This document shows, piece by piece, positions 20,253 through 59,580 of a DNA stretch of 64,000 bases (position 1 is its first letter; each line of letters begins with the position of its first letter). The stretch comes from Lota lota. Taxonomy: Eukaryota > Chordata > Actinopteri > Gadiformes > Lotidae. The notes below the pieces were generated by a model. It saw only the letters and a list, made by a program, of their open reading frames with translations. It was not told where the DNA came from and did not search any database. The stretch is from the NCBI GenBank assembly GCA_026745465.1, contig JACYXH010000592.1, forward strand, positions 266,220-330,219. Direction: 5' to 3'. The translations under genes and the position numbers were made by a program.

Positions 20253-21125
20253 ACGTTGTAGGACACTGGGGTGACATCTGTCCTGTGTTGGTCTCTCTCT
20301 CCTGGCAACCATCAGAACCATATGTATTACTGCATAACAGTATCTTTAATTTACTTCTGAATAATCCCTGCTCTGTACAGAGTTTAGTGTGTGTTTGATT
20401 GACTAGAGGTCTTTTATGAAACACATACACACACATGGGCACCCATCTAAAAATGTCCTGTAGTATTACTCTGGTTGGTTTAGAACACCCACAGGAAGTG
20501 TGCTGAGTAACCAATAAACATGGCCGCCACGTCAACACGGTGGTTTGAGCCGAGCTAGGATAAGTGAGCTCAGGGAGAGGGAGGCAAAACAACTTCAGCA
20601 TGTGTTTTAAAGAGACATGTTCCCTGTCTCGGATGGCCTGAAGTGGAGGATGTGAATGCTTAATGCAGTAGAGCTGAAAGCTGGGGTATGTAAAATGCTC
20701 TCATTTTTTGAATGTTTATATTTCCAAATGTTAAATTCTATTAGAATTTGGTTAAACTCTCATTCCACAACTTTCAATGAATAAAGTCCCACTATTTCTT
20801 ACTTTTTCCCCTGAGTATATTTTACTTATGAGTTGTGGTCGGGTCGTTTGTTCTACACCAATCACGTGCAAAGAGCTGGAACAACCAATTATTTACGGCA
20901 CTGCAAAGCGTGTGCACCCACCATATATTGGCTTAACTTTCCAAATGGCAGTGAGACGGCTTAATTATAGCACTTGTTTGAACCCTGACAGAGATGCAGC
21001 GAGACAGACCTCAGTTTACTTGGGAGGTGACAGACGTCTGACACACAGATGTTCTGCTCTATGCTCTACTTATGAGGACGTTCCTCAAAGGAATGCGCCA
21101 ACCCATAGCCCTGATCTGCCATGTG

Positions 21126-47456: not shown

Positions 47457-47980
47457 GTGAGACCCCCCCCCCCACACCACCACCACCTTTATTCAAGCTG
47501 TCTTTCAGTACCATGATACCAGGCATCCGTAGCATTGGTGGCCTCAGTGGGAATCAAACCTTACATGGTGAAACAAGTTGAGTCCGCTGCTTCTTATCAT
47601 CAGTGCCGATGGTACGTTACTTCTACTGCACCATCGATGAGGTGGATGAGGTGGATGAGGAGGTGTTAATTGTGGATGAGGAGGTGTGTATTGTGGATGA
47701 GGAGGTGTGTATTGTGGATGAGGAGGTGTGTATTGTGGATGAGGAGGTGTGTATTGTAGATGAGGAGGTGTGTATTGTGGATGAGGAGGTGTGTATTGTG
47801 GATGAGGAGGTGTGTATTGTGGATGAGGAGGTGTGTATTGTGGATGAAGAGGTGTGTATTGTCCTTGAGGAGGTTTGGACCTTGGTTAAGGGGTTGTGTT
47901 AAGGAGGTGTGTGTGTATGTGTCGTGTGCAGGAGCCCAGGATGGGTGTGTGGTTAAGATGCTGTGTGTGGTTGTGTGCAG
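47457..47980 (+). repeat. hdac4: Short hdac4 intron carrying a 21-bp minisatellite (47638-47875)
   Basis: The unit TGTGGATGAGGAGGTGTGTA+T recurs about 11 times, nine of them near-perfect. Because 21 is a multiple of three, the array reads as an open frame repeating VDEEVCI, but this is intronic. Confidence 0.93.
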
Positions 47981-56830: not shown

Positions 56831-58084
56831 TAGTAGAATTAAAAAGTAATATTGAATATATATACAATGCACACGAGTAGTAAACGGTGGAGTGTTGCTG
56901 GAGTGCATGAAGCCAGCCTCTGTCTTCGCCTGATTAGCGTTCAGTGGTACGTGAGGCTAGCTGAGTTTTTGGGCTGTAGACAAAGAGCTATTTCCTCCTC
57001 CGTGGCAGAAGCTAATGAGGTTAGTGTGAGCCGTGCTCTAAAGTGAGCCTGTGAATCTAGTGTTAGGGTCACGCGCAGGTCATCTGCGCTAGCTAGCAAG
57101 GACCAAGTGGCTAAAACCGGAAGCATGTGAGCGATGAGATAATAAGAGCCGTTTGTGTCTGTGGCAATCACGATGGCGGGTGGGGGCTTTGGTCCTCTGC
57201 CTGACCTGAGGAGGTTCCCAGAGCATGGCCCTCCTCTTCATACCCCTGTCTTCCACCCCTCCTTTACTCTTCTCCATCTCCTCCTCATCTTTCTCCTTCC
57301 CCTTCTCCTCCTCCTCTTCCCCCTCCTCATCTCGTTCTCCTCGCCTTTTCTTTCTAATTTCTGATTTATTTTCTAATTGCGGCTTCGTTATTGGATTGCA
57401 GTGGTGGCGGTGTCATTAACCTGCAGGTCGACAAATCGGAGCTGGCAGGGACTGGATGACTTGATCACAAATACAGTCATGGTCGGGCACCCTTGCCGTC
57501 CACCACATCACACAGAGCAGTGTCACGCTAGAGAACACGCTGATCAACACGTTGACGTGCAGGCTTTTAATCAAACCCATGTGTCATCTAGAGGGCGACA
57601 GGTTTTTGGCATGTTTGTCTGATGTGCATTATAGCGTTGTGAGTACATCATGTTTTTGAGGGAATAATGTTAGTGAGGACATAATGTTCATGGGGACGTA
57701 AAGTTTGTGAGGACATAATGTTTGTTAGTAGCTAAAGTTTCAGCATAGCTGGACCACCATACAACCTCATGGTCCCGTACCAATGTTCAATAGACAAAAC
57801 ATACCGTGTACGTTTGATCTTCGCTAAGGAATACATTTTACAGTAAACCCCTGACTGGTGCATTCTGGGTAACTTCCTTATCCTCGAAGCCCAGCCTGAA
57901 GCTCCTATATGTTTATATAGCAGTTTATATAGATACATTATAGTCTGGGTAATTATATAGTACATTATGTATTTTCTGGGTCTCCTTGTGTTCCTCAGCG
58001 TTTTATGCCAACCTGAAGCTGCTGTGTATATATATATATTTATTTATATATTTTACATTAATTATATGTATACCCCCTCCTCAG

Positions 58085-58213
58085 CGTCTGAGCCCAACCT
58101 GAAGCTGCGGTCTCGGTTGAAGCAGAAGGTGACGGAGCGCCGCAGCAGCCCTCTGCTCCGCAGGAGGGACGGCGCCATCACCACCGCCAAGAAGCGCTCC
58201 CTGGACATGGCCG
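58085..58213 (+). CDS. hdac4: hdac4 coding exon: 14-3-3 site 1 and nuclear-import region
   Basis: Acceptor CCTCAG, donor GTGAGG, 129 bp. It supplies [20 protein letters not shown] and then [27 protein letters not shown] carries the serine equivalent to human Ser246, the CaMK/SIK/PKD target that binds 14-3-3. The following Arg/Lys-rich run is the nuclear localisation region masked by 14-3-3. Differences from human are conservative (AERR to TERR, RRKD to RRRD). Confidence 0.96.
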
Positions 58214-58861
58214 GTGAGGAGATTGTGCCTTACTTGAAGGTTATTTAAAAGATGAAGCGGACAACTAATGTTTTGAGCTTATCTTGGTCCTTGTGCCGCA
58301 CGGCCTTATGGGATAGCCTATACTGACCAAGGAACCTTCCGATGCTTCCTTGAGATGTTGCAGAACCCAGGTACCTAGTTAGGATGTTTCGTAACAAGTT
58401 TCCTGACTAGGACAGTCCTACAGTGCAATATTACCTTTACTTGCACCTATTAGGGAAGCATCCTCACAATTGAGACACCGCAATTTTGAAACAGATCTCA
58501 CTTCTCTTGTAGAATCAGAATGTATCCGATAATTATCTTCTTCTCCTGTAGAGAAAGTGTAACGGATCATTCTCTTCTTCTCCTGTAGAATCCGCGTGTA
58601 ACAGATCATTCTCTTCTTCTCCTGTAGAATCAGCATGTTACAGATAATTCTCTTCTTCTCCTGTAGAATCAGCATGTTACAGATAATTCTCTTCTTCTCC
58701 TGTAGAATCAGCATGTTACAGATAATTCTCTTCTTCTCCTGTAGAATCAGCATGTTACAGATAATTCTCTTCTTCTCCTGTAGAATCAGCATGTTACAGA
58801 TAATTCTCTTCTTCTCCTGTAGAATCAGCATGTTACAGATAATTCTCTTCTTCTCCTGTAG
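58214..58861 (+). repeat. hdac4: hdac4 intron with ten tandem splice-acceptor copies (58500-58861)
   Basis: The unit TCTTCTTCTCCTGTAG plus AATCAGCATGTTACAGATAA is repeated with AGs at 58511, 58550, 58587, 58626, 58665, 58704, 58743, 58782, 58821 and 58860, a 39-bp step apart from one 37-bp step. The last AG is the real acceptor. The copy at 58587 is followed by the same 16 bases (AATCCGCGTGTAACAG) that begin the true exon, so the array derives from the exon border. Confidence 0.96.
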
Positions 58862-58968
58862 AATCCGCGTGTAACAGTGCCCCTGGCTCTGGCCCCTCCT
58901 CCCCCAACAACAGCTCCAGTAACATCCCCCACGAGAATGGACTGCCCATCTCTAGCAGCCCGTGTGAG
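58862..58968 (+). CDS. hdac4: hdac4 coding exon: Ser-rich linker ([20 protein letters not shown])
   Basis: Acceptor TTCTCCTGTAG at 58860-58861, donor GTAACC. The peptide continues NIPHENGLPISSSPCE and matches human [20 protein letters not shown] at its start. This acceptor is the last of ten tandem copies of the same splice-site motif (see the 58500-58861 repeat). Only this copy continues into an open frame; the nine upstream copies run into stop codons. The exon ends in phase 0. Confidence 0.93.
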
Positions 58969-59580
58969 GTAACCACCACCACAACTATGTGTGTGTGTGT
59001 GTGTGTGCATTCATAATATATAAATAAAACATATATTTAAACAGTCACAAAAAAGTGACAAAATGCTTGAAATGGGGTTTACAAAACCGCAGTACAACCA
59101 CAAGAAAACCTACTAATATTTAAAAAAGAAATGAAAATTTGCTTTTTGATGGATGGGTGAAAAAACGGATAGTAAAATCCTATGCTGAATAGGAGTTTTT
59201 TTTAAGTGCAACTGACACAGATGAACTGATTGATGAAGGGAGATGTTTGTGTACGCTTGTGTTAATGTGTGTTGTCCACGAGTGGAGTCTGCCTATCGAA
59301 CGGTGTATTGACGTCCTTGTATTGACTGTAGGTGGAACATACTTCAGTCTTCTCCGCTCGTGTCCTCTGAAATCAAACCGACCCCTCCTCTTCGAACCGC
59401 GTTTGTGTCTCTGTGTGTGTGTATCTGTGTGTGTGTCGGGGCATAATAGCACGATGTATCGAACAGTGGTCTCGCCAAACCTCTATAGACACGTCTGGCC
59501 CTTAAGTGTGTGGAGATGGATGGAGGGGCGCATCACTCACTAAAGAGGTGTCTCATCATCTGTCTGTGTTTGACTCCCAG
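58969..59580 (+). other. hdac4: hdac4 intron
   Basis: A short GT array at 58988-59007; otherwise plain intronic DNA. Confidence 0.85.

Follow-up and report, generated by a model that had tools for sequence, protein, structure and literature searches.

How is a single 3' splice site chosen when ten of nearly equal local quality stand in a row before the same exon, and how does such a row come into being? This question is raised by an intron in a window of 64,000 nucleotides from the burbot, Lota lota, which is the whole stretch of DNA analysed here (GenBank assembly GCA_026745465.1, 575 Mb in 867 contigs; contig JACYXH010000592.1, positions 266,220 to 330,219 of the forward strand, or G000:C592:266220-330219 in our notation). 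Directly upstream of a conserved coding exon, this intron carries a minisatellite whose 39-bp unit is itself a splice junction, composed of the first 16 coding nucleotides of the exon and the 23 nucleotides of the intron end.

The gene is hdac4, as the original prediction had already stated. Its exon at 49452-49602 matches the glutamine-rich N-terminal domain (Pfam HDAC4_Gln, E 2.3e-9) as well as two PDB entries of histone deacetylase 4, 7xuz and 2o94 (E 1.6e-15 and 9.7e-10), and catalytic exons are found downstream of the window's hdac4 exons. A protein query of 642 aa, for which the exons of the window and three downstream exons were joined, found 3891 proteins at E <=0.001. The best 120 of these 3891, with Gadus morhua at the top and several isoforms for some species, all come from fish and carry PF12203 together with PF00850; most are named histone deacetylase, and a few are unnamed, hypothetical or uncharacterized. 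One of these 120 is a Lota lota record, P0003, in which three unusual segments (47932, 60078 and 61603) agree letter for letter with the window and which are present in none of the other 119. Since one residue differs between record and window (L to F) over the 119 compared, the window probably derives from another individual. As a separate observation, two similar GTGTGCAG acceptors lie 49 nt apart before one hdac4 exon (47930-47980), and P0003 reads through in frame from the upstream one, which may be an annotation error.

The exon upstream of the array, placed by its translation and donor (58085-58213, forward strand, as are all array features below), ends in ...LDMA at phase 1, GCC-G, and matches the query at 98% at its place and the paralogue at 88.9%. 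From its donor at 58214 (score 9.1), a non-repetitive part of the intron extends over 58214-58499, and Tandem Repeats Finder delimits the array at 58501-58877, with a period of 39, 9.7 copies and 92% matches. By direct parse, ten TGTAG acceptors have their G at 58512, 58551, 58588, 58627, 58666, 58705, 58744, 58783, 58822 and 58861, spaced by 39, by 37 and then seven times by 39. The last of them, at the end of the intron stretch 58839-58861, is the acceptor that gives the conserved protein. It opens the exon ESACNSAPGSGPSSPNNSS... (58862-58968), which is 107 nt long and has its donor at 58969. The 16 coding nucleotides copied as unit heads form the head of this exon (58862-58877); they encode ESACN and have a homologous head in the paralogue.

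The units differ in how well they have kept this composition. Unit 1 (58513-58551), which the decoy acceptor at 58512 precedes, is diverged and identical to the common unit at 34/39 positions; unit 2 (58552-58588), also diverged, is 2 nt shorter (37 bp), has 31 identities to the common unit and ends in the decoy acceptor at 58588. Unit 3 (58589-58627) begins with the exon head at 16/16 identity, has an open frame, ESACNRSFSSSPV, without a stop of its own, and differs from the following units at 4/39 positions. Units 4-9 (58628-58861) are six identical 39-mers, each of which consists of an exon-head copy, TAA, a pyrimidine tract and TGTAG, and the final TGTAG is the protein-coding acceptor. Two short motifs divide the units in another way, ATAATT being common to unit 1 and units 4-9, and ATCATT to units 2 and 3. 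The original prediction of nine upstream repeats of the junction, at steps of 39 bp with one of 37, thus stands as regards the acceptor and holds loosely as regards the exon head: the motif is clean in the seven upstream copies of units 3-9 and diverged in units 1 and 2 (AATCAGAATGTATCCG and AGAAAGTGTAACGG).

Ten acceptors of near-equal local quality, each with its own pyrimidine tract and AG, had likewise been proposed, and this description is borne out. The eight acceptors 3-10 are identical to one another over 20 intron and 4 exon bases, so that no score computed on this stretch can separate the real site from seven of the decoys. On a consensus matrix, each of acceptors 2-10 has a score of 11.7, and the weaker acceptor 1 has one of 9.3. 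Of the 21 hdac4 acceptors that were called automatically, the 20 others lie between 1.1 and 10.4 on the same matrix; three acceptors of the hdac4 paralogue reach 11.1-12.4, and strong acceptors are therefore not peculiar to the array site. A score of at least 11 is reached by 15 of the 3920 AGs in the window. Acceptors 2-10 account for nine of them, a density of high-scoring acceptors which is not due to chance. The tracts are separate, 37-39 nt apart, and the AG-free stretch upstream measures at least 21 nt for acceptors 2-10 and 16 nt for acceptor 1. By a TNA rule for branch points, a branch-point-like candidate lies about 20 nt upstream of each of acceptors 2-10, and eight of these nine have another at 27 nt. 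A dispersed element was considered and rejected, as the 15-mer TTCTCCTGTAGAATC is almost confined to the array: eight of its nine places in the genome are acceptors 3-10 and one lies elsewhere, and the reversed control has one place.

For every decoy, the reading frame leads to a premature stop. When joined to the GCC-G of the upstream exon, all nine meet a TAA, the first base of which is at 58530, 58560, 58645 (for decoys 3 and 4), 58684, 58723, 58762, 58801 or 58840; this agrees with the original prediction, which had named the decoys at 58511, 58550 and 58587 (A of the AG) among others. A single base of the unit decides this outcome. Unit 3 reads GAA-TCC-GCG-TGT-AAC-AGA-TCA-TTC-..., and units 4-9 have TAA in place of TCA; because 39 nt make 13 codons, an array built of units of the unit 3 type would add 13 residues per unit and no stop. 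Use of a decoy would lengthen the exon from 107 nt, its size with the last acceptor, to 146-456 nt. Transcripts whose stop lies upstream of an exon junction by more than about 50 nt are usually directed into nonsense-mediated decay (NMD), and such a premature stop is one mark of NMD-coupled, or poison, splicing, regulated or conserved use of the decoy being another. All nine TAAs exceed this distance, being 126-436 nt away from the donor junction at 58968, and the decoy transcripts are thus predicted NMD targets under this rule.

The last acceptor, in turn, is the one that continues the protein, again as predicted, and the junction that it produces is that of the best 120 of the 3891 fish records. 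Across it, the segment from KKR to GSGPSSP has a constant 23 residues in 115 of these 120 by pattern, and the remaining five are the same by eye. An insert at the array junction occurs in 0 of these best 120 of 3891 fish Hdac4 records, a comparison in which protein records cannot show decayed transcripts. Further readings of the array were tried and set aside. A coding repeat, that is, a longer exon spanning the array, is contradicted by the TAA in all six of units 4-9; microexons or new introns find 0 donor-like sites scoring at least 8 in the array; and an RNA structure is not indicated, as array and exon together fold no better than shuffled sequences (z 0.52; 68/100 shuffles at least as good). 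The opposite strand, too, has an open frame through the array (58418-58951, 177 aa, minus strand), with a 13-residue repeat, KRIICNMLILQEK; such a frame is expected of 39-bp units that lack a stop in this register.

As features of the DNA, the array, its eight identical acceptors, the exon-derived unit head, the stops behind the decoys and the last acceptor leading to the conserved protein are established. From these features, we lean towards a reading in which a minisatellite derived from the junction supplies decoys that likely compete with the real acceptor and draw part of the pre-mRNA into predicted NMD. Nine acceptors, eight of equal matrix score, would compete with the real one from upstream, and each use of a decoy would yield a stop-containing hdac4 transcript that is predicted to enter NMD. 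The last acceptor is expected to supply most of the mRNA, with a leak through the decoys into decay; that it supplies the working mRNA is suggested by exon definition, since it alone stands directly on the 107-nt exon body. Measurable use of the decoys, decay of the resulting transcripts and differences in copy number between individuals are the predictions of this reading.

The alternative that survives best, possible and still clearly unlikely in our estimate, is that the minisatellite arose from the junction and is silent, so that the decoys are practically unused and the last acceptor is singled out by the body of the exon, by its enhancers and by the donor at 58969. The lengths speak for it, as the last acceptor alone gives the 107-nt exon and the decoys give 146-456 nt, and so does the burbot protein record P0003, which is normal at the array junction and fits the last acceptor, as any working annotation would. 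Against it stand seven decoys that equal the real site over 24 bases and that, lying upstream of it, are transcribed first. A scanning view, in which upstream AGs tend to be chosen (PMC1431707), also argues against silence. In that report, the use of upstream AGs and the degradation of the products are given as the authors' simplest reading of their own substrates, and degraded products may be missing from steady-state RNA (PMC1431707). The hdac4 array resembles this system in the rule by which upstream AGs are preferred and their products degraded; it differs in that the exons described there have a long AG-free zone, whereas the array has dense AGs and repeated branch-point candidates (PMC1431707).

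If the competing decoys are taken one step further, each 39-bp unit would add a poison acceptor and hdac4 output would fall stepwise with the length of the array, which we regard as a doubtful extension. Were such a copy-number rheostat true, one base (TCA or TAA) would switch a unit between 13 additional in-frame amino acids and destruction of the message, and the array would be the first acceptor-side counterpart of the human ABCA7 donor VNTR (see below) among the literature found.

A stronger claim starts from the original prediction that the array could act as a poison-acceptor brake on hdac4 dosage; in it, selection has retained the array for its lowering of hdac4 output, and dosage is tuned by array length. 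It can appeal to the stop behind each of the nine decoys and to the fact that the six identical copies are of a unit with a stop. The history of the array argues otherwise. In the hdac4 paralogue, which lies on the minus strand of G000:C837 in this genome, a homologous exon head follows a GT-rich acceptor, and the paralogous intron contains no such array. A junction of constant length in the best 120 of 3891 records, together with this homologous head, indicates that the exon head is old and that the intron copies are derived; and since the head is coding and old and unit 3 equals it at 16/16 positions, copying ran from exon to intron. Coding sequence was thus copied into the intron and then amplified, probably recently, as the six identical units suggest. 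A tandem duplication across the junction, followed by growth through unequal exchange or slippage, would account for this origin, and the identity of six units needs no selection. Because of the same six identical units, variation of copy number between individuals is likely. Short tandem repeats are described as abundant in codfishes (PMC13011446).

Duplications of splice junctions are also found elsewhere in this gene pair, as single copies. At 57992-58025 (forward strand), a decayed copy of the acceptor end and 27 nt of the preceding exon is identical to 58078-58111 at 29/34 positions; 0/2000 dinucleotide shuffles reach its score. The copy lies 86 bp upstream, a distance not divisible by 3, so that its use as an acceptor would shift the frame. 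Three donor junctions of the paralogue, at positions 447, 2245 and 20388 of the reverse-complemented G000:C837:732001-762000, each have a copy downstream. The first of these junctions belongs to the glutamine-rich exon and has its intronic copy 127 bp downstream, at 86.5% over 52 bp (411-462 and 538-589 of the L040+L041 reverse complement, G000:C837), and the copy of the junction at 20388 has no mismatch over 36 bp, as judged by score.

How far such copies gather at junctions was assessed with 39 conserved exons of both hdac4 genes, for which a non-simple copy within 800 bp was counted; 2/78 windows were dropped for short flanks, which left 76, and the junctions were placed automatically, some of them wrongly (e.g., hdac4 48024 and 60123). 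Copies were found for 4/76 junction windows, the array being one of the four, versus 98/6000 random intronic and 0/76 exon-middle windows (one-sided Fisher P 0.038). The complexity filter removed two high-scoring junctions, the hdac4b donor 447, which looks real by eye, and a CA repeat, and the same filter removed 847/6000 random windows; with donor 447 counted, the figures become 5/76 and P 0.009. This enrichment is weak, concerns one gene pair in which random intronic windows are copied too, and is suggestive only. The single duplications at other exons of both genes do fit a mutational origin.

A survey of 264 kb for arrays of period 20-100 with at least three copies, from which simple-repeat units were excluded, returned 22 arrays. 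One other of these has acceptor-like sites in at least three units (G000:C592:350220-350570, L011:1-351), and three have donor-like sites (47651 of the window and two in L010). The array of L011:1-351 consists of 10 copies of a 35-bp unit, TTCTTCTGTTCTAG|AA. It is situated some 25 kb downstream, within a different intron of hdac4 and about 1.7 kb before the next called exon, with similar, less regular copies reaching back into the end of L010. No exon was seen adjoining it, and acceptor-like units thus also arise without an exon boundary. The intron flanked by two other hdac4 exons holds a 21-bp array of 10.7 copies with 95% matches (47651-47874); most of its units have a donor-like GAG|GTGTGT, with 9 sites scoring at least 8, and it is not flush with an exon.

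For the selected brake, then, nothing found speaks from the side of selection, and the paralogue without an array, the six identical units and the single duplications elsewhere weigh against it; we consider it improbable. The array is best read as a by-product of mutation, a young minisatellite and not an evolved regulator.

A quite remote alternative moves the effect from the AGs to the pyrimidine tracts, since their accumulation could act as a sponge: the repeated UCUU-rich tracts would recruit PTBP1-like repressors, and the 107-nt exon would then be skipped, with a frameshift. The array contains 35 YTCTYY and 19 TCTT motifs, where the rest of the intron has 0 and 1, and the density of YTCTYY is 54 per kb in the array as compared to 0-16.6 in the seven other hdac4 introns counted. 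In human ABCA7, moreover, the reported effect of array length is skipping of the next exon (PMC5954066). Set against these points, ten copies of any pyrimidine tract would yield counts like these, and binding to the motif is putative. A false expansion in the assembly, finally, is hardly credible for an array of 377 bp on a 4.5-Mb contig, in which four unit types follow in order, one of them of 37 bp, which makes assembly stutter unlikely.

The preferred reading, that of decoys which likely compete with the real acceptor, can be set beside several known systems. Pairs of NAGNAG acceptors share one branch point and one tract, and the array was rejected as a case of this type on account of its spacing of 37-39 nt and the separate tract and branch-point candidates of each AG. 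Both arrangements have more than one AG competing for one exon, the AGs being described as 3 nt apart in NAGNAG acceptors (PMC3250501) and standing 37-39 nt apart in the hdac4 array.

Closest among the published cases found is the VNTR in intron 18 of human ABCA7. It has 25-bp units in about 12-427 copies and begins with the donor GT of exon 18; when the donor of the next unit is used, one unit is retained and the frame shifts to a premature stop (PMC5954066). The length of that array tracks skipping of exon 19 and lower expression, and not unit retention, and the VNTR has been linked to Alzheimer risk (PMC5954066). Both arrays begin at an exon boundary and include the exon's own canonical splice site; in this respect the hdac4 units resemble a splice-site-bearing VNTR, with the acceptor of the adjacent exon and not its donor. 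The ABCA7 array repeats a donor, whereas the hdac4 array repeats an acceptor in a unit with 16 coding nucleotides; an effect on splicing has been reported for ABCA7 (PMC5954066) and is predicted for the hdac4 array. In its arrangement, the hdac4 array is the acceptor-side mirror of ABCA7. An acceptor-side repeat array was not found in the open-licence literature, searched by title or abstract start.

Two further systems share single aspects with the array. VNTR6-1 in intron 6 of human TERT is, likewise, an intronic minisatellite, of 38 bp, that alters splicing, and together with another variant it is reported to change expression via splicing and decay (PMC11830802). It differs in lying about 3.5 kb from an exon and in being thought to act via G-quadruplexes, and the available part of the report mentions no splice site in the unit (PMC11830802). 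In intron gain by tandem duplication, a duplication across exon sequence is reported to create splice sites (PMC4974935), as it would have done here; unlike in that process, no new intron is made by the hdac4 array, which has no donor (0 sites scoring at least 8).

The observation itself is real, and an effect on hdac4 splicing is plausible. Without artificially duplicated sites, it is difficult to study how one of several equal 3' splice sites is chosen, and the array offers a natural case. Its seven identical decoys match the real site at 20 intron and 4 exon bases, so that the decision must fall to position and exon context; the gene is conserved, and its alleles probably differ in length. 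What would be new relative to ABCA7 is a splice-site VNTR on the acceptor side, in a codfish hdac4. A gene can come to be loaded with decoy splice sites through the ordinary growth of a minisatellite, and the hdac4 array of the burbot illustrates one way in which this may happen.
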